In this document: positions 1 through 39,331 of the stretch, one piece after another
Position numbering within the stretch: position 1 is the first letter of the stretch
How the letters are laid out: each line of letters begins with the position of its first letter
NCBI GenBank assembly: GCA_024663395.1
Contig: JANFAH010000010.1
Location: forward strand, 744,001 to 808,000
DNA from: Pisolithus tinctorius
Lineage: Eukaryota > Basidiomycota > Agaricomycetes > Boletales > Pisolithaceae
DNA length: 64,000 nt
Reading direction: 5' to 3'
Translations under genes and position numbers: made by a program
Notes under the pieces: model-generated
Database searches by the model: none
Told to the model about the DNA's origin: nothing
What the model saw: the letters and a program-made list of their open reading frames with translations, nothing else

Positions 1-304
1 CATTGTGATGACATTGCTGCATTATCACTTGCTGGGGTATTAACACCTACTAGTGCTAGTTGTAGTAGTTAGTAGTACTGCTAGTGTAGGCTATGCTACA
101 CTTTGGTAGTTTGCATTTTTGCCTGTTGCTGACTACAAAAAGTGTAGTATGAGTCAGAGGTGGAAGTCACATGATGCCGAATCACGTGACGAGACCAGTC
201 ACGTGATAGAGTCACATGGTCGATGCTGTAACAGTCACATGACCTGAAGTGTTCCCAACATGGCACCAGTGAAGTCACGTGACATGCTCCTTTCCAGCAC
301 CTGT
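1..304 (+). repeat. Left terminal inverted repeat, outer part
   Basis: This is the outer part of the giant element's left inverted repeat. It matches the reverse complement of about 39020-39331, including the run TATCACTTGCTGGGGT and the AACACCTACTAGTGCTAGTT block. From about 165 onward it holds closely spaced TCACRTGA octamers near 167, 181, 199, 212, 233 and 272. The repeat is cut at 304 by an LTR element and resumes at 22812. No gene is visible. Confidence 0.8.
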
Positions 305-665
305 TGTAGGAAAACGAATTTATGAGGATGAGGTGAAGAAGTAACTGAGGCAGTAGAGTCTGAAGGGAGTGGGTAAGCCAAAGGGGCTTCTATAGCCTGT
401 GCAGGGATCCTGAGAGTTGTCTGAAGGCTTCTAAGGCTGTCTGGGTGCAGGGAAACGACCTGCTCGATTTTGTCTCTTGTCTGTGGTAACTCGTCTATTG
501 TTTTTTTAAAAAAAACTAACTACATCCAGTACTAGGTAATGCTGACTAAGTGACCAAAATGCGAAATTCTAAGTACCACTAGCAGAAAAAAACTCCTAGA
601 ATCAAAACTAAATGAAATGAACAAAATAAAACAATTCCCCTAGTAGGGAAATTACATTCCCTACA
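305..665 (-). repeat. LTR of element 3 (3' LTR in minus orientation)
   Basis: This 361-bp copy pairs with 22451-22811 and differs at about eight positions, all transitions. It starts TGTAGGAAAA and ends CATTCCCTACA. A T-run/A-run (TTTTTTTAAAAAAAA) sits near 500-515. Confidence 0.85.
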
Positions 666-959
666 TCCCAGGGGTACTTGACATATTGACTGTCCCCAGT
701 CAACTCGAAGGAGGCTCGACTATACAAGAATCTGAAGCCATGAGGGAGGGGGGGCAAGACAACGCCTCGTCAACAAAAAACATTTGCTCGAGATGGCACG
801 AAACAAGACACGATGGTAGAAGGGAATGCGACAAGCACAACGCAAAACGAACAGAGAGAGCCTGCAACCCCAATCCTGAGATATCCATAAATCTGCCCAA
901 GGGTACCCTCATCCACCAAAAACCAAATGCAGCCATGAGTTCTGCAGCGACGACGACGG
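666..959. other. Internal spacer of element 3
   Basis: This is the stretch between the left LTR and the tandem array. Short overlapping open frames occur on both strands, but none has recognisable motifs. A polypurine tract next to the LTR is weak. Confidence 0.4.
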
Positions 960-2140
960 AAAAGGTACCATTCTGAAGCTGTTGAACAGTAGCATCAGGA
1001 TCCCAAAAAGCGAGAGATCCGTTTAAGAAACGGGCGAGATACACGCAGAGTCATCCTAAGGTGCCTGCAACAACAAAATGGTGCACATCTCCACAACAGC
1101 GGTAGCAAGTGTGATGTATGATATACCGTCAGAAAGCCCTCGACAAGTAGTACAAAGTCCCGGAAAAGCGAGAGGTCCGGCAGTGAAATGGGCAAGCTAT
1201 CATGCATACAGCATTGTTGACTGAAGAGGGAACACTGCAGAGTGACAATGGATGCTTGGGACATGGCAAAACTGCTGGCAACGATGGAGGGGGACGTAAT
1301 GAACATGCCGAAAAAGTGACGGAGGGAATCTGTGTATGCGGGCCTGAGATATTCGCAAAGTTGTCCAAAAGTGCCTCTAACCACGAAAACGAGCATGTCT
1401 CGCCGTTGCCTGCGCGGAATTTGACAAAAGAGGCGTCCCCGGAAATGGCTGCACATGGGGAACAGACTGCCAGAAAAGCGAGAGGAACAGTGCTCGAGTG
1501 CATGAGATATGACAAGAGGACTTTGAGGGTGGGGAGAAGGGCTTGACTTGCACAACAGCGGCTGGGACGATCAACACGAAACTCCGGGAGACGGTAGAGG
1601 ATTCGCAGACGAACAGGGCGAACAAGGAAATACGCCGATTGGACCAGCCGATCCCGAGTTATACACGAAACTGGCTCGAAGCCCTCTGGATACGAAAGCG
1701 TGGATATCTCGATAACGGTTGCGCGGAATTTTACAAATTATATGTCCCCAGGAAGGGTTTGGCGAGAGGGATGAACGACCTGAAAAGCGAGAGGAGCGAC
1801 GCAGAACTGCATGAGCGACTATGGCATGACCTCAAGGATGGCCTTCGCACAAAAATGCAAATATCTCCGGAGCTACTGGGCCTATCCAAACAATCCTGAT
1901 ATCAACATGGAGCATTCGTCGTGGACTACAATCCTCCCGAAAGGCGAGAGGCGCAGCGCGGAAATAAGCGAGATATGAGTAAGTACCCTGAGAATGGACC
2001 TATCCACAAAAATGCGAATATCTCCTCAACGGCTGGGCGCCTGCAAGCAATCTTGGTACCAACAGAGAGCTAACGTCGAGTAGAACGAGCCTGCGAAAAA
2101 GCGAGAGGCACGGCGTGATAACGAGCGAGATACACGCTCG
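960..2140 (-). repeat. Diverged tandem array, period about 157 bp
   Basis: A recurring block reading roughly AAAAGCGAGAGG followed by a GCGAGATA-type block appears at about 1004, 1162, 1472, 1782, 1939 and 2097. The gaps are 158, 310, 310, 157 and 158, that is one or two units of about 157 bp, with weaker copies near 1317 and 1627. Each unit also has an AAATGCRAATATCTCC-like part. The array therefore has about eight diverged units and occupies the place where pol would lie in an autonomous element. Several open frames cross it without conserved motifs, so it is treated as non-coding. Confidence 0.7.
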
Positions 2141-2460
2141 GTATGCACTCGGTACGAGGGAGGTAGCATTTGTCTTGACAAGCGACGAGCGGTGTCGGCA
2201 GTAATTTTGTCAGAACTGTATCCACGGATGGGAGGTGTTGTGTAGAGCACAGGGAGGTGCTAGGTGCAATGCTACTCAGTGTTCTGCGGGGAACTCGAGC
2301 CTGGGGGGTAAAAGACGAAGGGCAAAACAAGAAAATTCAAACATATCTAATGTACCAAAAATTCTGCATTACGACACAGGTAGATCCATACTAGATACTG
2401 TAAGATCCATAAGCAAAAGAAGTAAAAAACAACATAACAGAATTTGTGTGACATGCAGCA

Positions 2461-2678
2461 TCAATGTGCTCTTCGAGAGCACTGGGGCATGCGACTGCGG
2501 CTGCATGACTGCTTTGGTTTGGAACAGATGTATGAATACACCTTCCTCGAATGTGATCGAGAGCGCGAGCGTGAGGACGATGATGACAACAAGGAAGAAG
2601 GGGGTGAGCCACTAGTCGAATATGAACATGAGTGCCTTTGAGCGTGACACTGCTTCAAGCTGCGGGAATACAACTGGA
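2461..2678 (-). pseudogene. C-terminal part of the element 3 gag, split off by Gypsy-2
   Basis: This reading frame continues directly from the gag at 21078-22287 once Gypsy-2 and one copy of its CTGGA duplication are removed. The frame passes from ...EFIPVQ at 21077 to LYSRSLKQ at 2678 without a break. The tail is rich in Ser/Arg (repeated RSRS-type dipeptides) and stops at about 2461. No enzymatic domain follows. Confidence 0.65.
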
Positions 2679-2992
2679 TGTGATGATTCGCTATGGGTGC
2701 GTGCATTGGCGACAAGACAGATATATTACAGCCAACCTAACGCTGATAACAGGGATAAGGTACAGGGTAGAGTCAACGACAGGAAGCATACCTGATAACA
2801 GGAGGTTAACGCTAGGGAAGCAAACGATACACAAGGGGACTATATACCACACAACGAAGTGAGACATGATGAATAAGAAGGTGAAATAAGGTGTACAGTA
2901 TGACGGGGATGAGACCAAGTGATCGATCGGCTAAGTACAACAGGGACGAGACCAAGTGACTGATCGGCTGTGACAGGACGAATTTCCTCACA
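2679..2992 (-). repeat. Gypsy-2 3' LTR
   Basis: This 314-bp copy begins TGTGATGATTC and ends TTTCCTCACA. In sense (minus) direction it is preceded by a G-rich polypurine tract (GAAGGGGGTGA, complement of 2993-3003), which begins right after the pol stop codon at 3003-3005. Confidence 0.92.
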
Positions 2993-3002
2993 TCACCCCC
3001 CT

Positions 3003-3618
3003 TCAAGGCGGACGTCCCCTGCGAGAGAGGAACTCCTGGAGCTTGATGTTGACCCCATGCTTGTCATTGAGGTTTTCGCGTGGTTCCCAAGTATTTTCCT
3101 CGCGAGGGAGACCCCTCCATTTCACCAGGTATTTGGTGCGACCATGGCGAATCCGCTCATCCAGAACATCTTCGACTTCTATCTCATAATGGTCTCCAAG
3201 AAGGACCAGAGGTGGCGGTGGAGGACGTTGTTGGATGGAGGATGTGGGAGGGTGATAAGGGCGAAGTAGGATAGTGTGGAATACAGGATGTATACATCGC
3301 CAGGAGTGAGGGAGTTCAAGGTGGAATGCACGCTGACCTATCTGCTCGAGGATGCAGAATGGCCCGAAGCGACGGTCATCAAGTTTTTTGGAGGGATGAT
3401 CTGAGTGTAAATGAGTGGCATCAAGATAAACAAGATCTCCAGGTTTATATGTTGGAGACGTGGAATGGCGGCGGTCATAGAAGCGTGCCATAGCACTAGC
3501 TGCCTTAACGAGTGCAGCATTAGCATCATCCTGTATCCGTTTCATTCATTCTGCGAAGTTTTCTGCACTCTCTGTGAGGACGGTGGATCGAGGCTCAGGG
3601 CCCTTGCATGGGGAAGAG
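3003..3618 (-). pseudogene. Gypsy-2 pol, C-terminal part: integrase tail and chromodomain
   Basis: This is the 3' end of Gypsy-2 pol, separated from the integrase core by Gypsy-1. The frame enters from the integration site, crosses one TGA (3546-3548), then reads MKRIQDD..., the PGDLVYLD and KLDDRRFGPF motifs of the integrase C-terminal domain, and a chromodomain (YEIEVEDVLDERI...YLVKWRGL...NTWEP). Chromodomains of this kind target integration to chromatin in the chromovirus clade. The TGA sits where an arginine codon CGA would fit. Confidence 0.85.
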
Positions 3619-4143
3619 TGTCAAGTACGGGATATCCGGGTTGAGGCCGGACCGGAGACTGAAGCGGACGCAAGGCCGAGGGGTCGGGATCAGGTAGAGT
3701 GACGAGGATACAGATAGGTGGACTGTTTGGACTTAGTGACTGAGGGTACAGCGCTATTCCCTTGCGTGGGTCTCAGTCCGAGTCCGAGGCCAAGGCGGGG
3801 TTATCAGGATTTACTTAGTTGATTTCAGACTGAAGTCTACAGGCCGAGTATCTACGAGCTTATATACTAGAGTAGCTATAGTACGGAGACCGGTAATGCC
3901 GGTCTCGCAAGGATTGCTAAGACGATTGGTAAGACAAGGATTACTAACATATGACTAAGGTAACGGAGACTGGGACAGGTGGACCGGGGACAGGACCGGG
4001 GACAGGACTTATCCGAAATGACACGCACTGCAAAGCAGTGCTTACCGCGCTAGACCAACTGGGGACAAGAGGACCGTGAGGCCAAGGCCGGACTGAGTGA
4101 GTGCGAGGCCGAGTCCGGCCGGGGTCGAGACATGGCTATGACA
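3619..4143 (-). repeat. Gypsy-1 3' LTR
   Basis: This 525-bp LTR starts TGTCAAGTAC and ends CTATGACA. A TATATA box lies near 3860-3870 as in the partner LTR. The ends resemble those of the 916-bp solo LTR at 59617-60532, suggesting related families. Confidence 0.92.
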
Positions 4144-4281
4144 GTATCCCCCTCTTAGGGGTCGAACCCATGAGACCCCTGCGAGAGTGGTGGGCTGAGT
4201 CCGAAAGTTGGCTGAGTTCGAAAAACCGATACTTGTGGCTCGCTAAGCCCTTTGCGCTCTTTCTTTCACATCTTCTTCATC

Positions 4282-5335
4282 ATGTCCGAATCGAGGCCGA
4301 TCACCGCGACAGACAACAACGATGAAGGCCGGGCCGTGATCGACTGGACCCAGGTGTCGGAAGACGCCATCAAGTACGACACTGACGATGAGGAGGAGGT
4401 GATGAGAGCGAAGGCGAAAGAAAGGAAGAGACGAAAGGCGGCTGAACAAGCCCAGCGGGAGGAACAGGCGTGGCTTGAGGCCGAAAGGGCGGCAAGGGAG
4501 CAGGCCAAAGCCGAGAGGGCTGAGAGGGAGAAGGTCGAGAGGATAGCGCAGGAGGCCGAGGAGCAAAGGGTGCGTGAGAACGAAGAGAAGCGCAAGGCCG
4601 AGGAGGAAAAGGAGGCTGAGCGAAAGTGCAAGGCCAAGACCGGAAAGAGTAGTGAGGCCAGGGGTGAGGTAAAGAGGGTGGTGATGGACCCCGGGTGAGT
4701 ACTTTTACTACTCACGCTCCCTTCATCTAACGTCCTTTAGCTGTACCCGTTGCACCCGGGCCGAAGTCGTCTGCGAGTTTCTCGTGGACGGCAACAAGAA
4801 GAGGGTTGCCTGTGTGCGGTGCAACCTTTCAAAAGGTAAATGCCGGTGGCCTGGAGATGGGAAGGACGCCGAGGCCGGTCCCAAGGTCAAGGCCGACAAA
4901 GGGAAGAAACAGAAGGCCGACGAAGAGACGCCAGAGCCCGGGCCGAGCCAGAAGAAGCGGGCGAAGTCGAGAGTGGTCAAGGTGTTGGAGATCAACGAGC
5001 CCGAGGCCGGAGGGAGCGGGCTGAGGGAGGCCGGCACCGAAAGGTACTCGGGCTTGGAAAACAAGCTCGAGCGACTGATCGAGGCCGCGGGGCTGATCAC
5101 CAACAACCTGGCCAGCCTCTTCGAACTCCATGAAACCGCGGTCGAGAATTCAGGCCGCATAGCCGACGTGCTCGAGTCCTATGGTTTCGGCATGGCAGTT
5201 TCTCCCTCGGATTCAGGCTCATCTGAGCTCGACTCCGACGAATTGCACGAGGAGGCCGAATGGCTGAAAAACCATGGCAAGGATGAAGAGGAGGAGACTG
5301 AGGGGGAGGACGAGGCCATGGCCGAGGGCAAGTAG
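4282..5335 (+). CDS. Antisense Zn2Cys6/coiled-coil gene inside Gypsy-1
   Basis: This two-exon gene lies between pol and the 3' LTR on the strand opposite gag-pol. Exon 1 (4282-4694) starts ATG TCC GAA, has an acidic stretch (DTDDEEE) and a long charged Glu/Lys/Arg/Ala helix that should form a coiled coil. The intron is 4695-4740 (GTGAGT...CTAAC...TTTAG). Exon 2 opens with CTRC...C...CVRC...C spaced C-x2-C-x6-C-x12-C-x2-C-x6-C, the spacing of the fungal Zn(II)2Cys6 binuclear cluster. Next come a Pro/Lys/Glu-rich region, a short helical segment (LENKLERLIEAAG) and an acidic tail ending EEEETEGEDEAMAEGK. A DNA- or RNA-binding regulator of the element is plausible, but its function is unknown. 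The frame is intact, unlike most genes here. Confidence 0.75.
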
Positions 5336-5530
5336 TACCTTAGCGTAGAGGCCTGTAGTTATTTCTTCTGCGAATGTCCTGTGCGGTGTCCGGTGTCCGG
5401 TGTCCAGTCTCGTTCTTGTATAGTAAGTGAGAATCAAACAAGAAAAAGAAAACAGAGTAAGTAAGGAATCAAAAGGAACTATATACCAATAGGGGACAGG
5501 GCAGAAACTGAGGCCGGTTGAGACCGGTCC

Positions 5531-8500
5531 TCATTGGTACGGGCCAGGTTTGTTGGGATAGTGGAAATGAAACTCTTGCACGAGTTCAGAGGCGTTGTCT
5601 AGCTCTGTAGCTAGTACCCAAGTAGTTTCTTCATCAGTCCCTTCGTAGCCGGTCCACCGGACTAGGTACTGAAGCCAACACCAGCGACGCTGGTCGACCT
5701 TGGAGTCGAGGATTTCTGCTACCTCGAACTCTAGATCACCATCAACTTCGACTGGTGGAGGTGGTGGTTGAGTCCGGTTCGGGATGGTGTTAGGGACGGC
5801 CGGCTCGAGTTGGGAGACGTGGAAGACCGGATGTACTGCGCACATCGAGTCCGGCAGGCGCAGTGTGAACGAATGAGTACTGGCCTGAGCTATGACCGGG
5901 TACAGTCCAAGGTTTTTCTCCGAGAGCTTCTTGGAAGGCCGAGTAGACCGGAAGTATTTGGCTTTGACATATACTTGGTCACCGACTTTGAAGTCTGGAG
6001 CCAGCATGCATTTAGCATCGGCCGGTTCTTGGTAGCGCTGCTGTGCTAGGGTCATTTCTTCCCGTAGGTATTGATGCAGTGAGTCTAAGTCGACTGCATA
6101 GTCATGAGCCCGAGTGGAGGTGAGGTCGCGCTCTGGGTACACCGAGATGTTAGGGTGATAGCCCTTATTGGCAAAGAAGGGTGAAACACCGGTGGTAGCG
6201 CTAGGGGCATTGTTGTAGGCGAACTCGGCCAAAGGTAGTAGGTCGGCCCAATTATCCTGCTGGTAGTTGCAGTACACTCGGAGGTATTGCTCGAGAGTCT
6301 GGTTAGTCCGCTCGGTCTGGCCATCACCTTCGGGGTGGTAGCCCGAGGTGAAATGTAGATGCATATCTAAGGCCTTACCGAGTGACCGGAAAAAGTGGGA
6401 GACGAACTCCGAGCCTCGGTCTGAGGTTACATGGGTCGGCACTCCGTGCTTCGAGAAGACATGGAGTAGGAATAACCTGGCGAGTTCTGGGGCCGTGATG
6501 GTGTCGTGGGTGGGGATGAATATGGCCTGCTTGGAAAGCCGGTCAACTACGACGAGGATGGCCGTGAAGCCGGTTGAGGCCGGAAGCTGCTCAATGAAAT
6601 CCATAGAGATGGAGTTCCACGGCTTCTCCGGCACCGGAAGTTGCTTGAGGAGGCCGTAAGGCCAATGGCGGGGGACCTTAGCCCGAGCGCAGGCCGTGCA
6701 AGACTGGACATAGTCCTTGACGAAGGTCCTGAGGCTGGGCCAGGTATACTCACGCCGTATAAGCTCTAGTGTGCGATTTTGGCCGAAATGGCCAGACAGG
6801 GGGTGGTCATGCTTAAGCCGCAAGACCCTAAGACGGAGATCATTTGAGTCCGGCACATAGATTCTTCCATCAAGCTGAAGGAAGCCGGTGTCATCTACTG
6901 ACCACCGAGGATCAGACATGTCGGACAGGTGGATTTGTGAGACCGGGTCATCCGGCAGTGCAGTCAGGATATCATTGTGCAATTTCTCTATATCCATCAG
7001 TGCGACTGCTCGCAAGACCGGGTACTCCAGGTAGGTTGCACGAAGGGAGACCGCTAGCTGCTCCTGGGTGAAGACCGGTCTCAGGTTTTGCGGGTTCACT
7101 CGGGCATAGCCGCTATCCCCCTCTTTGGGGTAGACGTCCCATCGTCTAGTTAGGGCATCGGGCTTAGCCCCGAGCTTACCGGGTCTGAATCTAATGATCA
7201 TATTAAACTGAGAAAGGAATTCCGACCAGCGAGCTTGGCGGTGGGTGAGTACTTTAGAGGTAGAAAAGTACTCAAGGTTCTTGTGGTCAGTTACAACATC
7301 GACCGGTGAGGCCGAGCCTTCAAGGTAGTGGTGCCAGGTCCGGAATGCTTCAAAAATTGCAAGCAATTCTTTGTCATGGGTGTCATAATTCAATTCCGGG
7401 GCGGTCAGAGTCTGGGAGTAGAATGCGACCGGATGAATTTGGCCGTCGCCGCAGGTGATAGAGAGGATGCCGGCGATGGCATAGTCCGAAGCATCGGTCT
7501 CAACGGTGATAGGGACCCCAGGGATGAAATGAGTTAAGACCGGCGCGGTGGTGAAGGCGGCCTTGAGGTTGTTGAATGACCGACGGCACTCCTCAGAGAA
7601 GTTCCAAGGAGCCCCTTTGTGGGTAAGCCGGGTCAGTGGTACGACAATGTCCGAGTAATTGAAAATGAACCGGCGGTAGAAATTGGCGAAGCCGAGGAAA
7701 GATTGAATGTCCTTGACCTTGCGAGGCTCAGGCCAATCGCAGATGGTCTGGACCTTTTCCTTGGACATCGTGAGGCCGGCAGGGGAGAGGTAGAATCCGA
7801 GGTATTCGACCGAGTCCGAGTGGAACTCGCATTTCTCCGGCTTCGCATACAGGCCGTGAAGCCGAAGCCGGTGGAGGACTTCTCGGACATGCTGCTTGTG
7901 AGACTCCTTATCTCCGGAGTAGATCAAGATGTCATCTAAGTAGACGACTACACAGACATCCAACATGTCCGCGAAAATGGTATTCACGAAGCATTGGAAA
8001 GCGGCCGGGGCATTGGTGAGGCCGAAGGGCATCACTAACCACTCGTAAGATCCATACCAAGTCCAGAATGCGGTCTTCCATTCATCGCCCGGGGCAATCT
8101 GGACGAGATGGTAGGCATGCCGGAGATCGATCTTAGTATAGATCTTGGCTCGGCTTGGTGAATCCAGGAGGTCGGAGATGAGCGGTAGTGGGTATCGGTC
8201 CTTCTTAGTGATTTTATTGAGGCCGTGGAAGTCTACACAAAGCCGGAGGGAGCCGTCCTTCTTTTTGACAAAGAGGACCGGTGCAGCATAAGGGGAAGAG
8301 GTAGGCCGAATGAATCCGGTAGTAAGGTTTTCGTCGATGAAAGTCCGGAGAGCTTGGAGCTCAACCAGGGACAGCGAGTAGATTGTGCCAAGGGGCGGGG
8401 TTGTTCCTTCTTCGAGCTCTATCTTTAGGTCGTACTCCCAGTGTGGTGGGAGTGCCGAGGCCTTGGCCTTGCTGAATACATCAGCGAAATCATGATACTC

Positions 8501-9250
8501 TTCCGGGACATTGGGTAAGGCCGGAGGAGGTGAAGCCGAGGCCGATCGGGCTTGAGCTGAGTCCGAGGGACAGAGCTGAAGTTGGAATTGGACGGACCCT
8601 TCTAGTTTACAGGCGCGCACAAAGGCGGCTGCATTGATTAGGGAGACAAGAGGGGCCTTCAGAGGTGTGCGAGCCGGGGAGTCGGAGACCAGTACAGATG
8701 GCGCAAGGCCGGGTTGGTCACTAGGACCGGAGTCAGGAAGGCCGGTGGAGACCGGGCTTACAGGGGGTGTCGATGGGGTTGGCATTCCTTGTGCAGGGGT
8801 CCGGAATGTTAGACTGCTCAATACCCAATCAATCAATGGATTGTAGCGGGTGAGCCAGTCATGTCCGAGAACTATCTTACACTCAGAATCCAACGGGGCT
8901 AAAAACAGGGTTACCGGTGTGACATCGCCGGATGTGAAGCGGATGTTGACGTCTACTGCTTGGGTTATGGTGAAGGTGGACGTTCCATCGAAAAGCCAGA
9001 GTTGGATTGGTGAGACCAAATATGGGGTAAACGAGTGTTGATTAGCAAAATGATTATCTATGAAACAATGTGTGGAACCAGAGTCCACTAAAGTACGAAG
9101 CCGAGGTAAATCTGGGTTTTCTAATGTGACATAGGGGGTTAAAGAGTTCGGACTGGAAAGAGTGGACGCGTTGAGACAAGCCTCCAAGTTTGCACAACCG
9201 GAGTCAACACAGCTCCCAGATTGTGCGGAGTCCTGGGAGCTGCTACCTAT
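5531..9250 (-). CDS. pol: Gypsy-1 pol polyprotein (protease, RT, RNase H, integrase, chromodomain)
   Basis: An uninterrupted frame of more than 1200 codons, entered by -1 slippage at 9250-9256. Visible parts in order: aspartic protease LVDSGSTHCFID; reverse transcriptase with FVKKKDGSLRLCVDF, MPFGLTNAPAAFQ and the catalytic YLDDIL (about 7925-7950); RNase H with ETDASDYAIAG and DHKNLEYF; integrase zinc finger H-x-H-C-C around HPLSGHFGQ...CTACARAK; integrase catalytic residues in MDFIEQLP, TSDRGSEF and GQTERTNQTLEQYL; and a C-terminal chromodomain (FEVAEILDSKV...YLVRWTGYE...TTWVLATEL). There is no ATG at the start of the frame, consistent with production as a gag-pol fusion. All catalytic motifs look intact. 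Confidence 0.93.
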   Translation of the reverse strand: MGSSSQDSAQSGSCVDSGCANLEACLNASTLSSPNSLTPYVTLENPDLPRLRTLVDSGSTHCFIDNHFANQHSFTPYLVSPIQLWLFDGTSTFTITQAVDVNIRFTSGDVTPVTLFLAPLDSECKIVLGHDWLTRYNPLIDWVLSSLTFRTPAQGMPTPSTPPVSPVSTGLPDSGPSDQPGLAPSVLVSDSPARTPLKAPLVSLINAAAFVRACKLEGSVQFQLQLCPSDSAQARSASASPPPALPNVPEEYHDFADVFSKAKASALPPHWEYDLKIELEEGTTPPLGTIYSLSLVELQALRTFIDENLTTGFIRPTSSPYAAPVLFVKKKDGSLRLCVDFHGLNKITKKDRYPLPLISDLLDSPSRAKIYTKIDLRHAYHLVQIAPGDEWKTAFWTWYGSYEWLVMPFGLTNAPAAFQCFVNTIFADMLDVCVVVYLDDILIYSGDKESHKQHVREVLHRLRLHGLYAKPEKCEFHSDSVEYLGFYLSPAGLTMSKEKVQTICDWPEPRKVKDIQSFLGFANFYRRFIFNYSDIVVPLTRLTHKGAPWNFSEECRRSFNNLKAAFTTAPVLTHFIPGVPITVETDASDYAIAGILSITCGDGQIHPVAFYSQTLTAPELNYDTHDKELLAIFEAFRTWHHYLEGSASPVDVVTDHKNLEYFSTSKVLTHRQARWSEFLSQFNMIIRFRPGKLGAKPDALTRRWDVYPKEGDSGYARVNPQNLRPVFTQEQLAVSLRATYLEYPVLRAVALMDIEKLHNDILTALPDDPVSQIHLSDMSDPRWSVDDTGFLQLDGRIYVPDSNDLRLRVLRLKHDHPLSGHFGQNRTLELIRREYTWPSLRTFVKDYVQSCTACARAKVPRHWPYGLLKQLPVPEKPWNSISMDFIEQLPASTGFTAILVVVDRLSKQAIFIPTHDTITAPELARLFLLHVFSKHGVPTHVTSDRGSEFVSHFFRSLGKALDMHLHFTSGYHPEGDGQTERTNQTLEQYLRVYCNYQQDNWADLLPLAEFAYNNAPSATTGVSPFFANKGYHPNISVYPERDLTSTRAHDYAVDLDSLHQYLREEMTLAQQRYQEPADAKCMLAPDFKVGDQVYVKAKYFRSTRPSKKLSEKNLGLYPVIAQASTHSFTLRLPDSMCAVHPVFHVSQLEPAVPNTIPNRTQPPPPPVEVDGDLEFEVAEILDSKVDQRRWCWLQYLVRWTGYEGTDEETTWVLATELDNASELVQEFHFHYPNKPGPYQ

Positions 9251-9256
9251 TTTTTT
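9247..9256 (-). promoter_or_regulatory. Candidate -1 ribosomal frameshift site of Gypsy-1
   Basis: In sense direction gag ends ACA AAA AAA TAG, so the seven-A run (9250-9256) is a canonical X XXY YYZ heptamer (A AAA AAA) in the gag frame, directly followed by the stop codon (9247-9249). Pol is open in the -1 frame from this point and has no ATG. I did not fold a downstream stimulatory structure. Confidence 0.65.
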
Positions 9257-10609: not shown

Positions 10610-10635
10610 GATGTACTAGACCCACACAAGTGGTG

Positions 10636-23745: not shown

Positions 23746-23752
23746 GATTGAA

Positions 23753-25008: not shown

Positions 25009-25029
25009 GCCCAGGTTTGTAAACTCTTT

Positions 25030-28000: not shown

Positions 28001-31000
28001 CCAGGGCTGCAGCGAAGGCTTTGACTTACTATATCAGTGATTACATTACAAAAAATGATCTTCAGGTTCATGTCAGTTTGCAAGCAATTCGGGCTGCTAT
28101 CGACAGCCACCGAAAACATTTTGTTAACAATGTAGAAACTTCTTCCATGGTGCGAGAACGAAATCTGCTGACAAAAGCCGTTAACGCCATGATGGGCAGA
28201 TGGGAGGTCTCCCATCAACAAGTCATGAGTTATTTAATTGGGGGTGGGGATTATTACACCAGTCATGAATTCCGTACCGTACGCTTTCATGAGTTTGTGG
28301 ATATCACAACAGTGCATGAGGTTCATGTGGATGGAGATTGCCAGTGCGCTGATGAATGGCTTCCAGATTGCCCGGGAAATTTGCATGGGTCGACATGTAC
28401 CGCACATACAGCTGATGGGTCGCTGTCTGTCGTATTGGAACTGCTGGACTATTTATTGCGTCCATCTGTTTTGCCGTTTGATGAAATGTGTTTATGGCAG
28501 TTTCTGGAACAGACACAAAAAGTAAAGCGATCGTCTGCTAAGGGAGATGTTTCAGAAGAACCACATACCAGGCACGAAAACACATCGACATTCTGCGGTT
28601 CTGAACAGCCAGCGTATTCTCGCAGATTTCGGGTGCCATTCGCAGACAGCAGTCATCCCCAGTTCACTACTCACGAGCTCTGTATGCGGAACGTCTTCGT
28701 AGTTCCCATTCTTTTAGGTGATTCTATTCCTTTGCCGCAAAAGTCAGACTTCCGCATGGAGTTCTTTTGCCATGCTATGTTACTTCTCTTCTGTGCATGG
28801 CGCAAACCGTCCGAACTGCTGGGTGGTTATTCCTGTTGGACAGAGGCATTCGATGCTTACCAGTTTGGGGAATCTGCCTCTCGAATGATTTCGAACTTCC
28901 TCATCGAATTGGAGTGCAAAGATGCAAGAGATGTTGTGCGAGATGACTATAAGAGTAAGGCTGCAAAGCCATCGTCAGACTTCTATATGAATAGGTCAAG
29001 TGAATTGGATGTGGAGCTTTTGAAGGAAGCTCTGATTCTTGATGTGGAGTTGGATCACGCAAGACTGAACGACCTGCAACCCTCTGATTCAGAAGATTTG
29101 GATGAACATGAGGTGGTTACACTACCAGAGGATGAACAGGATATCATGGCAATGTCTCGGGCACTTCATCACGACGATAGTGGCGACAATCGTCCCTGTA
29201 CATTCGAAGGGCGCATTGTCGAAGTCAATACTGAGATGGAAGATCTGATTAATGTCCACAGCACGTACATGTCTTCGCAGCGAAAACGTAAACATCCGGA
29301 AAAAGAACCCTTTGAGGAGCACACCGAGCTGAACTCGACATCATTGAATCAAAAATGGCCATGGACCTCTGGCGATCGCAGTGCAGCCTCGCTTTCCATT
29401 GGCACTATAGTGAACGAACGATGTCCTGTGCAGGTCGATGCTAACAATGTTTCTGGGGATGCTTTTCTGGCGGAAATGATTTCAAAGTGGTCTTTGGAGA
29501 CTAACACGGAACAGAGACACGCGTTTACGATAGTAATCGAGCATATGTTGCGCAACGATCCGGATCAAATGTTGATGTTTATTACTGGTATTGGAGGATC
29601 TGGAAAGAGCCACCTTATAAGAGTGATCGTGGATCCATTTGCGCAAAAAGGCTGCTTGCGAGAGATTTTGTTAAGCGCTCCAACGGGGAGTGCTGCATGC
29701 CTCATCAATGGTTTCACAATTCATGCACTCACTCTTATGAATTCACGGTCCATGGGTAAAGACAAGAGACGAGGGCGAGGGGATGCTAACGAGCAAACTG
29801 TTGATATGGATGAATTGCAGGAGATTTGGCGCGACGTCACTTATTTGGTTTTAGATGAAGTGTCAATGGTTTCCATGGAGCTGCTTGCCGACATAGCGAA
29901 ACGGATAAGTCTTGCCAAGGCTGGTGAACCAGAAAGAAGGGATAAGCCGTTCGGGGGGATCAACGTTATTTTTGCGGGAGATATGGCGCAACTTCGCCCT
30001 GTAAATGGTACTGCATTGTACTCTCATGCTGTTGTGAATAACTTGTCCAGGTGTACGTTCGAAACCGTGAAAGCGCAAAGACATTTATTCGGGGCCTTCT
30101 TATGGAGATCGTTAACTCACGTCGTTCAACTCGTTCAAAATGAGCGTGCAAAAGCAGATCCGACCTTCATTGAAATGCTTGGTCAGATAAGACTGGGATC
30201 AGCAACAATGTCTGTTGGTTCGCCACCATCCAATTGGCACCATTTGCAGCAGAGGTTACTTAGTGAATTACATAAGAACAGCATCGATGATTTCTTGCAC
30301 TTCTCCGAGGCACCAATTGTCTTCGGTGAACGTCGATTGCATGATCAGTGGAACGAGGAGAGAGCGAAGTCCTTTGCTTGCGATACCAGACAGCCGTTTG
30401 AATATTACTATGCGCAACACTTCTGCGACGGCGAATGCCTTACTGGTGAGGAGGATGAGCGACTAGCCTCGGTACAACCCAAGGAATCGAAAGATTACCT
30501 TGGATGTCTCCCCTTGTTTCCAGGAATGCCGGTTCTCATCACCGAGAACCTCTCGGTCACAGGAAAGGTTGTCAACAGTGCCCAGGGTACCGTTCATGAC
30601 ATTGCTTGTTCTACAGTGGATGGAAAGCGCATTGTAAGGTGTGTGTATGTTGCCATTCCCACGTCTACACTAGAATTGCCTGGGGAAGATGCGCATATCA
30701 TCGCAGTCTTCCCTCAACCATCTACATTCTCTTACTTCTCAGAACATGTGGGGAAGTTTCGGATCATGCATCGTCAAGTTCCCGTGGTTCCTGGGTGGGC
30801 ATTTACAGACTACAAGGCTCAAGGCACCACACTCAACAAAGTCATTGTTGATTTGGCAAGTGCTAGGGGTGTGCAACATGCATATGTCATGCTATCTCAT
30901 GCTCGCTCTCTTTCCAGCCTCACCATCCTACAGCCTTTCCCATCTCAACGTACCCTTCGGGGTCTGCAGCACGACCTTCACAACGAGTTGACCCGACTGG

Positions 31001-31065
31001 CAGACCTCGATGCCGCAACAACAGCAGCCTACAACAGGCGCCATGTTGACATCAACGTGACATGA
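25030..31065 (+). pseudogene. Helitron-type Rep-helicase (HUH Rep plus Pif1 helicase)
   Basis: About 2010 codons in one frame, broken only by TGA at 26641-26643. The N-terminal third has Cys pairs (CAVC, CPSC) and a DUF6570-like region (ELPPHVQESIHACSALELMLVAAC...FNRGNVALLPQDP). The Helitron-like N domain follows (SNLMNNNSAGFLTVVFPHLDPWGIGAF, FFLTLNLHNLTNVLIAHFGG), with an HUH motif in RGMLHCHMLLW (about codon 815) and the tyrosine pair in ALTYYISDYITK (about codon 1000). The helicase has Walker A GIGGSGKSH (about 1520), Walker B LVLDEVSMVS, and late motifs FGGINVIFAGDMAQLRPV and DYKAQGTTLNKVIVDL. HUH Rep and helicase together drive rolling-circle transposition. There is no ATG at the frame start, so a first exon may lie upstream. 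Confidence 0.88.
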
Positions 31066-31329
31066 CATGATCCGTTAGCACTCATTAAAATTGAATTTCC
31101 AAAACAAGATTGATCCCCTCGTAAGACATGATTCTGCCACAACTTTAACTGACAAGAGATGGCGACTCAACTCCCCTCTGACATCGACATCGACATCATT
31201 TTAGGTTTTACACATCTGAACTCATCTTGTCTCCCCTATTTCCTTTGATAAATTCAAGTCAGAGGCCGTTGATTTAAAAAGTGGTGTGTGCTCAATTTCA
31301 ACACCCCTTTCTCTAATTTCCCTCCCCCC

Positions 31330-32505
31330 ATGTCTTTCTTACCATCAGCTAATCACCCTCTTGGTGCCGACCTATGGATGGGAGACTTGCAAACCATTGT
31401 CCGGAACCGCATACCTGTTCACGGGCTTCAACAATGGGAATGCTTCCCAACCTCCCTTTGCCACATGGTCGAATGGGCGACAGTCACCTGGCATCCATGT
31501 GCTCCTGACCGAAGGTGCTCACACCTACTTGTCTACAAGACTCTGCCTGTCCCGGAACTGTACGACGCGATGTACCCTGTGTCTGTCCGCATCTACGGAT
31601 TCCTCGATAAATTTTGTGTTGGTGAGTTCAGAAATTGGAATGGGTGAGTGTTTCACACACACACGTCATCACTCTCATTAACCATGCTGACAGAGACAGC
31701 ATGAGAGCAGCTTACGCTGTGCAAAGCCTCTTGCTCAGCAGTATGGGTAACACAGCTGCATGGCGCAATCAGCTTGATCACTTGAATCTTGCAGCCACTT
31801 TTGCCAGCCATGTTCTGAAGGTTCCGCTTCCTTCTGTTCAATTCCGACACCACCTTCACATGCAAAGAAAAGTCTTCACCAAGGTATTCCATGCCTCCTC
31901 ACTTGTTCTGGTATCGTATTGCAATACTGAAATGTATCCCCAAGTGTCTGTTTGATTTGCAAGAATCTCAAGCGTGGCACCTTAGTCCGATACACGATGC
32001 GAGCGCTCAAAATGCCCACATCCCAAGACTACTGGAGTACCCTTGGGAATGGAATGGGCCGCTTGAGATATTGGAAATGCAACAAGATGGAAACATCATG
32101 CTGATTCATGAGGTCCTGTTGTCCCGTGGGGACTTCGTCGAGATCGACGCCGAGTTTGATCTGGTCGTTGTTCGAACCCATGCCACCCACGCCCACTTAT
32201 GCGTCTTCTTGACATGCAAACAAATCCTGCGCCTCCAATCTGCCCATCCCACACAGGTACGTAACCTTCCCCGCTACTTAAGACAAGCAACTAATGTTGT
32301 GTCACTGCAGCCTTCCGGTACCCCGATGGTGACAACCTCCCCTACAGAAATCAGACGCATGCAAACCAACCAAATGTCGGAAGACCTCCCCAGCATCCAC
32401 CCACCCGAACCAAACACGCTGGATCAGGTTTCACCTTCAACGTCACAACAAATTCGCTGCCATTCCACAGCGTTTATGCCAATTAATTCAGCTCCTATTG
32501 AATGA
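31330..32505 (+). CDS. Unknown cargo gene 1, spliced
   Basis: Exon 1 from ATG 31330 reads MSFLPSANHPLGADLWMGDLQTI and ends at about 31644; GTGAGT...TGACAG leads to DSMRAAYAVQSLLLSSMGN. A later exon reads IPRLLEYPWEWNGPLEILEM, EVLLSRGDFVEIDAEFDLVVV and THAHLCVFLTCKQILRL, then a GTACGT...CTGCAG intron and a Pro/Ser/Thr-rich tail ending at 32505. The junction around 31882-31970 does not keep frame with obvious splice sites, so it is either mis-spliced in my model or damaged. No known domain is recognised. It lies downstream of, and on the same strand as, the Rep-helicase. Confidence 0.5.
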
Positions 32506-32849
32506 ACGTTTATTAGCTTTCACACCATAAACATTAAAGACCGCTTAGAATTCTAGACATCCTTTTGGGCTAGATAGACATCATAAAATACTATTCATGT
32601 CCTTGACCGTAAACATTCTTGGTGGGATTACCTCTGACGTCACCATCACTTCAACAATTATGCGTCCACTCTCCCGTTCCAGTACACTCCAACGTCCTGT
32701 TTGTGCCCAAAAAAGGTTGCTCTCCCCATGAAAATTTCCTTCCCCAAGCGCTCTTGGAAGGGTCCGAAAGGCAGTGACCAATGGTGTGGTATGACCTCTT
32801 AAAATTTCCTGCCACACTCCCCTGCATCATCTCGTTCACCTCTCCTGTG
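32506..32849. other. Intergenic spacer in the cargo block
   Basis: No gene or structural RNA is recognised. A short minus-strand open frame (32581-32817) has no distinguishing feature. Confidence 0.4.
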
Positions 32850-33700
32850 ATGGCTCCCAAACGCGATGCATCTCAGATGAAAAAGGCTTCCCCTCCAAAA
32901 CGAACGCGAACAACTGCTATGTCCAACGACACTACCAATCAACAAACTACCGCACCTTCCTCCTTGACAGCAACTGTGTCCAATCAACCAGATTCTGCAC
33001 TCAGCCAGCCCCCCTCGTGCAGCGAACCTAACCCTTCCTCTACGCCATCAACAGACACCCTCCCAAGTATGGGCGTATTGGTTACTCCCGAAGGGCCCTC
33101 GCACCATCAAGCTGCTGCTTCCCAATTACAGGAGTCTTCTGCCCCCTCACACAGTTCCCCCTCAGACAGCACTCTGCCCCCCCCGACGGCAATTACAACC
33201 TCTGTCGACACATTAGTTCCAGTCCCAGAGTCTTCCTCTTTCGACCTCGACCGCATTTCCACATGTCCCGACCGCTTGCTAAGGTATGTATCTACAGATG
33301 GCCGTGATGATCTCTACTAACCATTACCCATGCAAGCTGGATTAAATTACTTTCCACGTATTGCAACCAAGATGCCAACACATTTGCACTTGGACACATC
33401 TTGCCCACTGCGACATGGGGGATGGCAGACCCCTACGAAGACCGCAGTAAGGTACTCTGCAATCCAAAAACAAATGAACCCATCAACATCTGGATTCTCA
33501 GCCACATCACCAGCACCTGGTTCATGAAGAATGGCGCTCCGGACAACCAATGTTCAGTCACGATCCTTACTCTATCTTCAAAGCTAGGGCAATATGCAAA
33601 CCATTTGCTGTCTGCATTCTCCTCCCCGAAACTGCATACGTTCTTCTTGTTTGTATCCGAGCCAAACCTTAACGTTTATCGACATCAAGCACAGCTATAA
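32850..33700 (+). CDS. Unknown cargo gene 2, spliced
   Basis: Starts ATGGCTCCCAAACGC at 32850. The N-terminal half is basic, then low complexity rich in Ser/Thr/Pro/Gln (MAPKRDASQMKKASPPKRTR). An intron at about 33292-33341 (GTATGT...CTAAC...GCAAG) joins DRLL to SWIKLLSTYCNQDANTF. The folded-looking C-terminal half contains HILPTATWGMADPYEDRSKV, WILSHITSTWFMKNG and FLFVSEPNLNVYRHQAQL. The basic start could be a nuclear localisation signal. No known family is recognised. The frame is intact after splicing. Confidence 0.5.
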
Positions 33701-33868
33701 ATGAATATGATCGTGGCGTCGTCCGCACTGTGCATTGGCAAAGTCCCAGAAATGGCAGTGACATAAGTCTCTAGCCAAGCATTCTCCTGCCCCTTTTCAT
33801 CCCAATCCCAGACCGCACTCTTCAACTCGATTTATGACGCTCGAGAAGTCCTAAAAAGCAAAAGTTCG

Positions 33869-34084
33869 ATGACAAAGCTAGACATCTCCCACCTGCAGAA
33901 ACATGCTCTTGTGTTACTCGAAACTCAACTCAACCGCTATCATCAAAAAGATGAAAATGGCCGATGGACGATTTCTAAAGCTCAATTTGAACTCGAAGCT
34001 GTTTATCTCCTTCAGGATCCATATCTCCATGACCCAGAGCAGAATATTGAAAGCAGTGTGGAAATTCCAGACCTCGCAATTTAA
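33869..34084 (+). CDS. Small open frame in the cargo block, unknown
   Basis: A 71-codon frame (MTKLDISHLQKHALVLLETQL...IESSVEIPDLAI) with a mixed, protein-like composition. It may be an exon of a larger gene: the frame is open upstream to about 33800, where a possible AG acceptor follows a pyrimidine-rich stretch. No function can be given. Confidence 0.3.
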   Translation: MTKLDISHLQKHALVLLETQLNRYHQKDENGRWTISKAQFELEAVYLLQDPYLHDPEQNIESSVEIPDLAI

Positions 34085-34586
34085 AAAAGGATCTTAGCAC
34101 TCATTTACATCATTGACGGTCATTTCCAATTTTCCTGCACAGCATCTACAACAAATCCTCTTCCACTAACAACCCGGAACATTGCATCATAGACACCCAT
34201 CCCCCTAAAACATATTTTCTTGTTTTCCTTAGCTTCTTCTGTAGTGTCCGATGGCTCATCCCCTGGACCTGTAACATTGTATGTCCTCCTTAACATACTG
34301 CTAAAATACAGATGCTCGACAAGCCAGACACCCTACCCCCTTAAAAATCGTGAGCTTCCTCAACATTTATGGATTTATATTCTCGCCTTCAACACTTTAA
34401 ATTGATTGCACCTCGCCCTCTCCATAATAACCCCGTCATCAACTTTTACGGGATATGTCAGCGGTTACTTCATCATCTCCCGCACTGACTTCATGATACT
34501 TTCATCGCCACCTCGCTCAGTCGCGACATAAACAATACATATTAAAAAAGATATGAAGACACGTCCCCCTCATCCCGTCACTGCCC
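34085..34586. other. AT-rich intergenic region
   Basis: No convincing gene. The short frame at 34220-34405 lacks features. The sequence is AT-rich, with several TTAAAAA runs. Confidence 0.4.
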
Positions 34587-34922
34587 ATGACATCTGTTCT
34601 TGCCTTCTACCTCTCCCTGTCTGACAGCAGTGGACAACGCATAGTATCGTTTAAAAACCTCGACCACGACATCAAAATACTGGTGCGGGATAACGTCTTC
34701 CCCGTCGACAGCGTCCTCTGCGAAACCAACATGCACATAAACGAGTACCACTTCCGCATCATTTTCGATCGTCATCACCACCACCACGTCCGCTCTCAAG
34801 CCTCGTATCTATTTATTCGCATTGGACCCCACAACTACCCCATTCACCTTTGGCCTGAAAACGATCTGGATCCCATACTAGAAGCCCTCACATTGTATTA
34901 CCACTTTTGCCTCCTCCTATAA
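34587..34922 (+). CDS. Unknown cargo gene 3
   Basis: An intact 111-codon frame starting ATGACATCTGTTCTT. It contains SFKNLDHDIKILVRDNVFPVDSVL, a His run (HHHHH) and ends LTLYYHFCLLL. It reads like a small globular protein but matches nothing I know. It is on the same strand as its neighbours. Confidence 0.4.
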   Translation: MTSVLAFYLSLSDSSGQRIVSFKNLDHDIKILVRDNVFPVDSVLCETNMHINEYHFRIIFDRHHHHHVRSQASYLFIRIGPHNYPIHLWPENDLDPILEALTLYYHFCLLL

Positions 34923-35111
34923 CATCGTCTAAACAACCCACAGATTAAATGACTTAATCCCAAGCAGTCCCTCTGACGGTGAACATCCCCAACAGAATTA
35001 ACACTGCACCCTGTCCTCTTCATGATAACATTTTCTTCGTCATACTTCATCTTCTCACATTCTCGTCCTCCTATGCTGACATTTGCCTTTTTGAAATATT
35101 GCATATCTCCC

Positions 35112-36128
35112 ATGCCGCCCCCCCATCCCCTAATCCAAGCTATGACGACATCAGTTAAGAACTTCATCAAAAACGAACGAAAACCATATCACCCAACAAT
35201 ACGCGACATGCTCCCCCCACCACCACCACCGCGCGAGTTCCCTCTCTTCAGTCATGTCGACCTCTTGCAACTCGTTCTCGAGCACTGTGATATAAGAGAC
35301 TTAATAACCCTTGCTGCAACATCAACCACCAATGCAAAGCGTGTCAAGTGGTATCTAAACCACCATCTCCAAACCACCTGCTGCCCTTTCTTCCCTAGCG
35401 CTGAAGTTCTCACTAACATACTATCTGCATGCGATGCGGTTGTATCCGGATCGGCTGCGCTCTGCTTAGTCCTCCCTGCGAATGCGTGCAACTGGGCCCC
35501 ATCCGACCTCGACATCTACGTTGCTCGAAACAGCAGCGCACAACTTTTCAACCTCCTCCAAAAGCATAATTATAGCCTTGTCTGCCAGCGCAACTCCAAC
35601 GACAGTGACTACCCCCCCTCCACCATCTTCTCCATTACCACCTTTGGCAACGGACACAAGCTCATTGACGTCATCGTCTCCAAAACCACATCTGCTCTCT
35701 CTCCCATTTTCCAATTCCATTCAACTGCCATCATGAATTTCTTCTCAGCCGACTCCTTATTCTGTGCCTACCCCTCACTGATGCTGTGCCACCGCACAAT
35801 GATCAACACCGCCAGGCTCCACAATCGCAGCTTCACTCCCACTCAAATCAAAGCGCTCCTTAAATACAAATCCTGCAGTTTTCGTTTCATCTCCTGCGAA
35901 GAAACCTGTCACCCCCCCTTCGCGTGCAGGTCCCAAGTGCGCTCCCTAAATGACCATGGCTGGTTATCACTCGACTTCGCAACCGTGCCCTGTCATCACG
36001 CTCAGCCTGTAGCGATGTTCTATCGCTTGGGGGTCGTCGACATTGTTTGGACGCTTGGAGGACAGGTCTGCGGATCCACCTCATTATGCGTCCCACCAAT
36101 CCTCCACATCATTGATGAAAGCTTGTAA
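35112..36128 (+). CDS. Nucleotidyltransferase-like protein with F-box-like start, cargo gene 4
   Basis: An intact frame starting at ATG 35112. A Pro run (PPPPPPRE) precedes an F-box-like helix region (FPLFSHVDLLQLVLEHCDIRDLITLAATST). Next is a nucleotidyltransferase-fold signature, VVSGSAALCLVL followed 12 residues later by PSDLDIYV, giving the G-S and D-x-D elements of the superfamily. A third acidic position may be in HKLIDVIV. Such proteins are recurrent in mushroom genomes, but substrates are not known. It could equally be a non-catalytic relative. It is the last + strand gene before the convergent transposase. Confidence 0.55.
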   Translation: MPPPHPLIQAMTTSVKNFIKNERKPYHPTIRDMLPPPPPPREFPLFSHVDLLQLVLEHCDIRDLITLAATSTTNAKRVKWYLNHHLQTTCCPFFPSAEVLTNILSACDAVVSGSAALCLVLPANACNWAPSDLDIYVARNSSAQLFNLLQKHNYSLVCQRNSNDSDYPPSTIFSITTFGNGHKLIDVIVSKTTSALSPIFQFHSTAIMNFFSADSLFCAYPSLMLCHRTMINTARLHNRSFTPTQIKALLKYKSCSFRFISCEETCHPPFACRSQVRSLNDHGWLSLDFATVPCHHAQPVAMFYRLGVVDIVWTLGGQVCGSTSLCVPPILHIIDESL

Positions 36129-36736
36129 GCCATTTGTTTCCCATCGTGTAGCTCCGACTCAAACCCTTCTACAGCTTTGTTATGTTCCATCCGAACTAAA
36201 AACATCATAAACATCTGCCTTTCCATAAACACCATCCTACAGACCATTGTTATGCCTCCTGTGACTTTCTTAGACTACTGCCTGGCATCATTTCACACAG
36301 AACCGACATTCTTCCAGCCTGCTTCGATATTGATTTGTGAGGGGTGGATTAGTGCTTTTATCAACATCTGCCTTTTAACAGCGACATTCTACACCTGTTC
36401 TAGAGCCTCCACTGACTGTCTTCCACCAACTTCGTTAATAATTTTAAAAGACATGTGTACCTAGAGTTGCTTTGATTATATATATAAACCTACAAAAATA
36501 TGTTTACCTTCACATCACGTGGTCGTCCAAGTGTGTCCAGGGGCGCCCAGAGGGCTATTGGTATGTATGATAGCTTTTTCCAAGGTGCTAGCAATGCCCC
36601 CCCTACCATGTAGTATGTGTAGCACGAGTCAGTGTATCATAGCTACAGAAATGAACTATCAAATGTGTTGGCATCCCTCCAGCATGTGCATCGAACAAAA
36701 GTCAGATTAGATTTTACTAGTACATGATGGATGTAG
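36129..36736. other. Spacer between convergent genes
   Basis: Holds the 3' flanks of the + strand cargo and of the minus-strand transposase. There is a TATATATATAAA stretch near 36477 and CTAG tetranucleotides at 36462, 36567 and 36713; the last is followed by T, as at Helitron 3' ends, but no clear hairpin precedes it. Confidence 0.35.
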
Positions 36737-38158
36737 CTAAAACAAACTAGCGACTTCTTCCTCGAAGAAGTTGGATTCTGTGTCTGATTCACTGTCCATG
36801 GTACTCTGTGCTTGCTCCACCAAAATATGTTGATAATCGGCCCACATGGCTGTTGCAATATCATCCCGCATCCTGCGCACAAGTATGTCTTCTTCTAAGC
36901 TCCTTGTTCCTTCCATGGCTTGGGGATTAGTATGCAGGCCTGGCTGCTGCTCGCCCTCATCATCTTCATTGAGAGAAATATCGTCTGTGCCCTCCTCGCT
37001 CTCACCATGTGTACAAATAAAATTGTGAACGGCGCAAAGTGCAGCAGGGATCCATGCTTGTATATCAATGTCGTATTCTGGCGCCAGAAGGAGTATTCGA
37101 AAGCGATGCTTTAGGATGCCGAAGATTTGTTCTATGACATTTTGTGCTGACGCATGCTGCAAGTTGAAAAGCTCCTCCTTATTTGCTGGTCTGAGAGGAA
37201 ATGAATAAATAAATAAAGCAGTGAGCAAGACAAAAAACATACCACATGTTAGCATGGCCCCATTCTGCAAGATGATACTGGATGCCCCAGTAGGGGACTA
37301 GCAACTCTTGACATGAGGGGTAGCCGGCATCAGCAAGGAGATATTTTCCATTGGGGATGTGGAGGTCGGTGGATGATGCGTCACCATAGACACGGGTGTC
37401 CATTGCAGATCCTTCCCACCCTGTCAGCATATAAACAAACTTCAGACTGAAATCGCAGATGAACAGGCCGTTTTGCGAGAGGAATCCCTTGCAGTTGTGA
37501 TAGTTGGAATGTATAATTGAAGGGGGGGATACAGGAATGTGGCAGCCATCTATCGCACCAATCGCATTCTGAAAGTACGGCCAAAATTTGGGGTTGCATC
37601 GGATCTTCAGATGGATGGCTTCACCAGTCAGAAACTGGACATAGGTAATATAAAAGGGGGGTTCTGAAAATACGAAGAGCAATTTCTTGAAGTACCTGTA
37701 AAAAAATATGAATATCTGATTTGTTGCATGTATTTTGTATTGAACTCACCAAGATATTGTGTCATTTGACTGCTGAAAACACTCACCAACATGCCTGACC
37801 ATCAGGCCAGTCACACATGTGTAGAGGAAAATCGCAAGCTGTTCTTCCAGAGTAACAAATTTCGAGTTGCCGTGACCAATCTCCCACAGCTCCTCTATGA
37901 GCTGAATGAAAATCTCCTTGCACATACCAAGTTCACAGTGAATATGATCAGGGTGACCAGTTAGGAGTTCTTGAACCCACATATCTCCAGAGAGTTTGGA
38001 GGTGTGGTATGGTATTGGCTCTTTGCGAACACTGGAGCCAACCAGTTCAGCCAACAAGACTAGGAGCATCTGGAGGGCAGTCAAAATATGCTGCAGTAGC
38101 ACTCAGCACACATCAGGATGATCAGGCGGCATCTTTGGAGGAGTTCAATCTCCGACAT
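36737..38158 (-). CDS. PIF/Harbinger DDE transposase
   Basis: Spliced minus-strand gene just inside the right inverted repeat. The exons give YHTSKLSGDMWVQELLTGHP, LEEQLAIFLYTCVTGLMVRHVGE, then (intron at about 37690-37748, GTGAGT...TTACAG) WYFKKLLFVFSEPPFY, the catalytic blocks NAIGAIDGCHIP (first D), LLADAGYPSCQELL (second D) and, after a second intron (about 37196-37251, GTATGT...TCTCAG), NVIEQIFGILKHRFRIL (E). The tail is acidic. DDE residues are intact. The likely start is an ATG near 38069; an upstream ATG at 38158 is one base out of frame. Several positions that look arginine-like are Trp, His or Gln, consistent with CpG decay. Confidence 0.85.
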
Positions 38159-39331
38159 ACTGCTGGACCTTATGCTGAATCTGTGCACCACCCATCAAAC
38201 AAGAACAATCTGACAAGTTTCTGAACTGCAAGTGAACTGCGCTTTCCGTACAAGCTCTTATAGCTTTGAGATGGCCAATAAGCCATTGACCATTGTGTGC
38301 ATTTCGCATTTTTGACACTTTTAGTTGCAGAAATCACTAGGCACTTGCTGCTATTATGGCAGGGCATGCCATCCCATGTGCCAGGTGAATTGGCGTAAGT
38401 GTGGAAGCACTGTGGAGGCTGCAATGCAATGTTTTAGATATGTTTTGTAAATCTCCACTATTTTATTTGCGCTTTTTGGAGTTTTCCCACGCATCTGGGA
38501 AGTGTAATTTGTGTGCTGTTCATTCAATTCCTGATGGATTGACTTGATACTTTCTACATAGGTAGCTAGGTACATGGGGCATGCATCCAAGGTATTAAGC
38601 ATTGCATAAACTATGTGTGAGATGCATGCTGTGATATTCTTTCGCTTTTTCCATTCCCCTTATATCTCATCAACCAGTGACTTTGATTGGATAATACTCC
38701 AACATGTTGTGGATATCCCCTAGACCATCCCACCTGCAAAATCACAGATGCATATGTCAAGAATTGAATGAGTGGTGACATGATTCATGTTGAAGCACAG
38801 CCACACTTAGCATTAGGGGCGAGTTAGTCACATGCTAGGTACATCGTGCCAGATGCGAGGTAGGTGCAGTCACATGGTGTCACATGTCTCAGGGTTCGCA
38901 TGACCACATCACCCTTGTGACCATGTGACCACAGGTGTGGGTGCAGTCATGTGAGGTCACATGACCTAGACATGCACATGACATACCACTGCCATGACCC
39001 GAGGCACCAAGTCATGTGGTGCCCTATGCAACTTCATGACCAATTGTCACATGACTTCATTGGCAGGGGATTGGCAATACCTTGGATCACGTGACAATTA
39101 CGTCATCTACCATGTGACTGAATCACGTGATCTGTCATGTCATGTGATCAATTGTCATGTGACCTTCGCACTCTGGCTCGACCCTACACTTTTCATAGTC
39201 GACAGTAGCCAAAGATGCACACTACCAAAGTGTAGCATAGCCTACACTATTCAGCACTACCAACTACTACAACTAGCACTAGTAGGTGTTAACACCCCAG
39301 CAAGTGATAATGGAGTAATGTCATCATAATC
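38150..39331 (-). repeat. Right terminal inverted repeat
   Basis: Reverse complement of the left repeat. From about 38830 to 39170 it is packed with TCAYRTGA octamers in both orientations. Similarity with window base 1 ends at about 39331, so the outer boundary may lie slightly beyond. An imperfect palindrome (TGATTGTGCAATCA) lies just outside at about 39345-39358. Confidence 0.85.

Follow-up and report, generated by a model that had tools for sequence, protein, structure and literature searches.

A nest of independent transposons, one inside another, in the genome of Pisolithus tinctorius

Collectively, our results indicate that the region described here is almost certainly a nest of independent transposons of known kinds, inserted one inside another in four layers: a foldback element, a PIF/Harbinger element, a Helitron and LTR retroelements. 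The window, that is, the whole 64,000-bp stretch of DNA that was analysed, corresponds to positions 744001-808000 of contig C10 (C10:744001-808000), and coordinates below are those of the window unless a contig is given. The four layers were resolved by comparison with the organism's own genome of 92.5 Mb in 221 contigs, which carries Plavaka, KDZ, Ty3-type and Helitron elements. For the Harbinger, the Helitron and the outermost LTR element, the comparison yielded boundaries and uninterrupted sites; target duplications were identified at the foldback, at the Harbinger and at both inner LTR elements. Within the window, no match to Rfam was obtained at gathering thresholds, and none from ARAGORN. 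The initial annotation had favoured a single giant Harbinger element of about 39 kb that had captured a rolling-circle module, and had offered as its alternative a nested Helitron, lying between the Myb gene and the transposase gene; it is the alternative that the empty sites uphold.

The large inverted repeats that had been taken for the ends of this giant element do exist (2-284 versus 39330-39045, 79%; 23017-23720 versus 38897-38186, 92%) and do enclose the genes, but they are not Harbinger ends: they belong to a foldback element that holds the Harbinger in its loop. Nor do they terminate at positions 1 and 39331, since position 1 is the edge of the window: the repeats continue for 1,254 bp beyond it and, on the right, reach 40339. 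The outer part of the left arm (1..301, plus strand) starts with CACTTCAGG at C10:742747 (window -1253), to the left of the window, and its inner part (22812..23645, plus strand) runs up to the loop; the right arm (38261..40339, minus strand) ends with CCTGAAGTG and is followed at 40340..40347 by the right copy of the target duplication, GACAAACT, the left copy of which lies just outside the window. Tandem repeats, a foldback trait, are present in the arms; their units measure 33 and 65 bp. By arithmetic on the coordinates, the foldback without its inserts measures about 4.5 kb.

With the right arm (38186-39331) as query, we found at least 67 genomic matches, a lower bound with 40 of 238 candidates scored, and many of them read as arm, about 31 bp, reversed arm. 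The arrangement that defines a foldback, a short loop flanked by long inverted repeats, is hence present in several copies. At 10 distinct palindromic places among the 30 loci fetched, the loop is uninterrupted (GATTTATAGC) and reads ...CATTAGAGAT-TTA-TAGCTTTGAG...; these represent at most nine insertions, because the loci on C4 and at C24:517 share their right flank. An eleventh locus, on C3, has GATCTACAGC across the loop and another interior. A related foldback copy at C3:250506-263775 (L051/L052) contains a 10.4-kb interior unlike that of the window, in which only a sub-threshold match to Transposase_21 was detected (23.2 bits versus 28.6), and its right arm is without the outer part in the sequence fetched. 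The outer ends CACTTCAGG...CCTGAAGTG are bordered by duplications in four of the five copies with both ends compared (GACAAACT or GGACAAACT in the window, GTTACCATC at C2:1184, GTGGTAAC on C24 and GGAGCTCA at C2:1763), the fifth, at C10:1407, having no direct repeat at its ends. The duplications are 7-9 bp long, with one end base ambiguous. According to the parts of the published accounts cited here, the foldback elements Tetris (PMC4079207) and Mutator/Foldback Tm1 (PMC3169594) likewise consist of a small loop between long inverted repeats, and our literature search found no report joining foldback elements, basidiomycetes and terminal inverted repeats.

Profile searches of the whole genome returned few matches to MULE (2) and hAT-dimer (5) transposases and 160 to KDZ (463 first-look candidates). 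The MULE and hAT-dimer matches lie away from the arms, none of them between two foldback arms, and among the KDZ matches listed there is likewise none in such a position; one KDZ match (C8:2049304-2049705) is situated on the inward side of a lone arm at C8:2034641, 13.6 kb away from it, and no partner of that arm was found. KDZ elements make 8-bp duplications. Because KDZ is very abundant and the other two are few, KDZ is a candidate mover of the foldback family.

Other repeats of this general shape lie nearby. A second element with long inverted arms occupies 41970-57324 (41970-43221 versus 57324-56066, 87%; also 43220-43824 versus 49843-49239, 91%); an LTR element at 49846-56066, whose 148-bp LTRs are 99% identical, interrupts its right arm. 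In addition, a 2.4-kb near-perfect palindrome (L040), another foldback-like repeat, is located past the right edge at window-relative 64278-66674. Fragments of Plavaka transposase are found at 14880-15455 and 58927-61448.

The element in the foldback loop is a PIF/Harbinger transposon (23649..38257), 14,609 bp long with the Helitron and 3,037 bp without it. Its terminal repeats begin with GAGCTTGTAC at 23649 and, on the other strand, at 38257, and the junctions GAGAT-TTA-GAGCTTGTAC ... GTACAAGCTC-TTA-TAGC reveal a TTA duplication at 23646-23648 and 38258-38260. The TWA duplication that the initial annotation had expected at the true ends was thus located at those of the Harbinger; it is absent at the ends of the large repeats, where 7-9 bp are duplicated instead. 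Five sibling Harbingers stand alone elsewhere in the genome at about 94-95% identity, four of them 3,037 bp and one 3,036 bp long, all five flanked by TTA or TAA; they amount to at most four insertions, because L055 (C32) and L056 (C91) share flanks. Subtracting 11,572 bp from the window copy leaves exactly 3,037 bp, the length of four of the siblings. The annotated Harbinger transposase was confirmed by DDE_Tnp_4 matches in two overlapping minus-strand frames (exons within 36737..37745, minus strand, possibly extending to about 38.1 kb). The Myb/SANT-like gene (23836..24989, plus strand, spliced, approximate extent) was recovered through a spliced model from the sibling L054 (PF13837, 4e-7; PF12776, 2.5e-6; both above the cut-off), whereas frames left unspliced, in the window as in L054, had no match to Myb; in the window the frame stops at a TGA (24007-24009) that the five siblings do not have. 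The element thereby combines a DDE_Tnp_4-type transposase, a Myb/SANT-like companion, a TWA duplication and short terminal repeats in about 3 kb, as PIF/Harbinger transposons do, and nothing essential sets it apart from them, the window copy being interrupted by the Helitron and carrying a stop in its Myb gene.

Between these two genes lies the Helitron (24990..36564, plus strand), with TAT at both ends; counting a single TAT, its length is 11,572 bp. Its RepHel frame (25009..31065, plus strand) comprises DUF6570, Helitron_like_N (1.1e-24) and a PIF1 helicase (4.8e-22), together with the HUH and two-tyrosine motifs, the features by which a Helitron is recognised. The 2000-codon Rep/Pif1 helicase that had been annotated was therefore matched in its domains, but not as an intact frame, given the in-frame TGA at 26641-26643. 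The same Helitron resides at three other loci (C10:1234012-1245590, C40 and C30), at about 92-96% identity and with unrelated flanks. Its 5' end corresponds to window 24990 in the C10 and C30 copies, and its 3' end to 36564 in the C10 and C40 copies; the C40 match stops at window 25205, leaving the 5' end of that copy unconfirmed, and the C30 copy has an internal deletion, breaking at 35524 and resuming at C30:505312-506131, where the 3' end is not reached. The five sibling Harbingers are without the block and read AGCAGA-TAT-GTACG through a single TAT, where the window reads AGCAGA-TAT-TCCTGG...TTGG-TAT-GTATG. Block-free copies with a clean junction, as anticipated for a nested Helitron, accordingly exist, although the ends of the block are not the anticipated TC and CTAG but TAT-TCCTGG...CTATTGG-TAT. 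These sibling sites and the occurrence of the block elsewhere, with the same ends in other flanks, contradict its capture as cargo by a Harbinger.

Among further Helitron end regions, TAT is present in 19 of 20 (15 of them 5' ends and 4 of them 3' ends), the remaining one, L084, reading TGT; L077/L079 and L082/L083 share flanks. An empty site holds one TAT and a filled site has TAT on both sides, a pattern expected equally from A^T insertion and from a 3-bp duplication; as the former accounts for the TAT repeats just as well, we do not claim the latter as a new mechanism. The canonical combination of 5' TC and 3' CTRR was not found, the 3' end being CTATTGGTAT or CTTTGGTAT. A 4-bp stem lies 9 nt from this end, forming a weak hairpin, and the 3' 75-nt stretch folds at z = -1.25 relative to shuffles. 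The element works like a Helitron, but because its 3' end is not CTRR, we do not file it as a canonical Helitron1.

Among the closest published likenesses is HELPO1 of Pleurotus ostreatus. The parts of Castanera et al. cited here (PMC4289320) report that its RepHel is followed by one to four cap genes, that it inserts at AT and that it ends in CTRR or CTTG. The two share a RepHel with downstream genes and a size of 7-14 kb, may share AT-type insertion and the lack of a clear duplication, and differ in their ends, which are T[C/G]...CTRR or CTTG in HELPO elements versus TAT-TCC...TTGG-TAT here; neither an F-box nor a nucleotidyltransferase gene is named in the main text of that paper. Non-canonical Helitrons of Fusarium oxysporum, as presented in the portion of the source cited here (PMC5148889), also have ends other than CTRR and share this absence with the window Helitron, whereas the end sequences themselves differ.

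The outermost LTR retroelement interrupts the left arm of the foldback (302..22811, minus strand; LTRs 97.3% identical), and palindromic foldback copies such as L010 and L022 run through its insertion point uninterrupted. No target duplication was found for this element. Within it lies a second LTR element (2679..21072, minus strand; LTRs 97.1%; duplication CTGGA), which in turn contains a third, of the Ty3 type with a chromodomain (3619..11172, minus strand; LTRs 98.3%; duplication AAGAG). Together, these elements, spanning 302-22811, account for over half of the 39 kb that had been read as one element.

The unusual part of the nest is the Helitron, which retains passenger genes of its own. 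The several plus-strand genes of no assigned kind that had been annotated are indeed found as plus-strand open reading frames downstream of RepHel. Genes A (31330..32505, plus strand) and B (32850..34084, plus strand) are spliced, with approximate extents, and neither has a Pfam match; relatives of gene A occur mostly in Pisolithus tinctorius, from which the best relative of its spliced model (91% identical) also comes, in itself a pointer to a Pisolithus-like basidiomycete as the likely source of the DNA. Gene C (34983..36128, plus strand) is an open frame of 381 aa with a weak F-box-like part and a nucleotidyltransferase-like fold, for which Foldseek returned no PDB match at E <= 0.001. GC skew is strongly negative over genes B and C (32001-36000; -0.28 and -0.40 per 2 kb). 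Gene C follows RepHel on the same strand and within 20 kb at 30 of the 32 RepHel loci scored (24 within 6 kb), and blocks A and B, followed by the stretch that precedes gene C, are found again in this order at seven more diverged loci. Among 23 aligned gene C proteins, SGS is invariant and DLD nearly so. On this evidence, the cargo may be a conserved and functional part of the Helitron, a reading we advance tentatively: roughly three genes, one of them coding for an F-box-like protein whose fold is of the template-independent nucleotidyltransferase type, would form a tail passed on together with RepHel across subfamilies. This tail might act in rolling-circle transposition by modifying the ends of DNA or RNA or by steering the turnover of host proteins. 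Our search found no report of a Helitron-linked F-box/nucleotidyltransferase gene, although literature on Helitrons, F-box genes and basidiomycetes exists.

That these frames are instead casually captured fragments of host genes, with no role in the Helitron, is a serious alternative, albeit one we regard as somewhat doubtful. It draws on the dN/dS of gene C, only 0.50-0.66 among the closest copies, two of three of which contain stop codons, on the presence of gene C-related proteins in other basidiomycetes, and on the genes of Pleurotus Helitrons, which the cited parts of PMC4289320 describe as captured; the recurrent position of gene C after RepHel, the preserved block order at diverged loci and the invariant SGS with its nearly invariant DLD argue against it.

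Readings that treat the whole region as a unit fare far worse. It is highly improbable that layers of separate origin now move together by way of the outer foldback ends: those ends are intact and have a matching duplication, but in the genome search with the repeat, as the initial annotation had suggested, no second composite locus was found among the 67 arm matches (40 of 238 candidates scored), matches reaching the Harbinger end of the query were confined to the window's own pair of arms, and the interior exceeds 40 kb with several genes interrupted. One giant cargo-carrying Harbinger with the large repeats as its ends and a captured Rep-helicase module can practically be dismissed, for although all the genes do sit between inverted repeats, the arms are found as palindromes with a short loop and none of the interior, the Harbinger and the Helitron each exist separately, bounded by ends of their own, the outer duplication is 7-9 bp rather than TWA, and the empty sites of Harbinger and Helitron led us to reject any single giant element.

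The nest of independent insertions almost certainly formed in four steps. The palindromic foldback, of about 4.5 kb and with ends CACTTCAGG/CCTGAAGTG, inserted first, producing the 7-9 bp duplication; a DDE-type transposase encoded at another place probably moved it in trans. A 3,037-bp PIF/Harbinger of the standard kind then entered the short loop of the foldback at TTA, and the 11,572-bp Helitron went, presumably by rolling-circle transfer, into a TAT that lies between the Myb gene and the transposase gene of the Harbinger. An LTR retroelement, presumably the last of the four layers to arrive, inserted into the left arm of the foldback and was hit by a second, itself hit by a third. The enzyme that moved each layer is one that we infer, and the LTR layer is only presumed to be younger than the Harbinger and Helitron layers.

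The claimed hybrid class of transposon is therefore struck from the list, and the case illustrates that nested insertions beside the edge of a window can mimic one giant element. What remains of interest are the passenger genes of the Helitron and the transposase of the foldback family. The linkage of gene C to RepHel extends the known gene-carrying habit of basidiomycete Helitrons and provides a lead, namely, that these elements may keep accessory genes by selection, not only by random capture.
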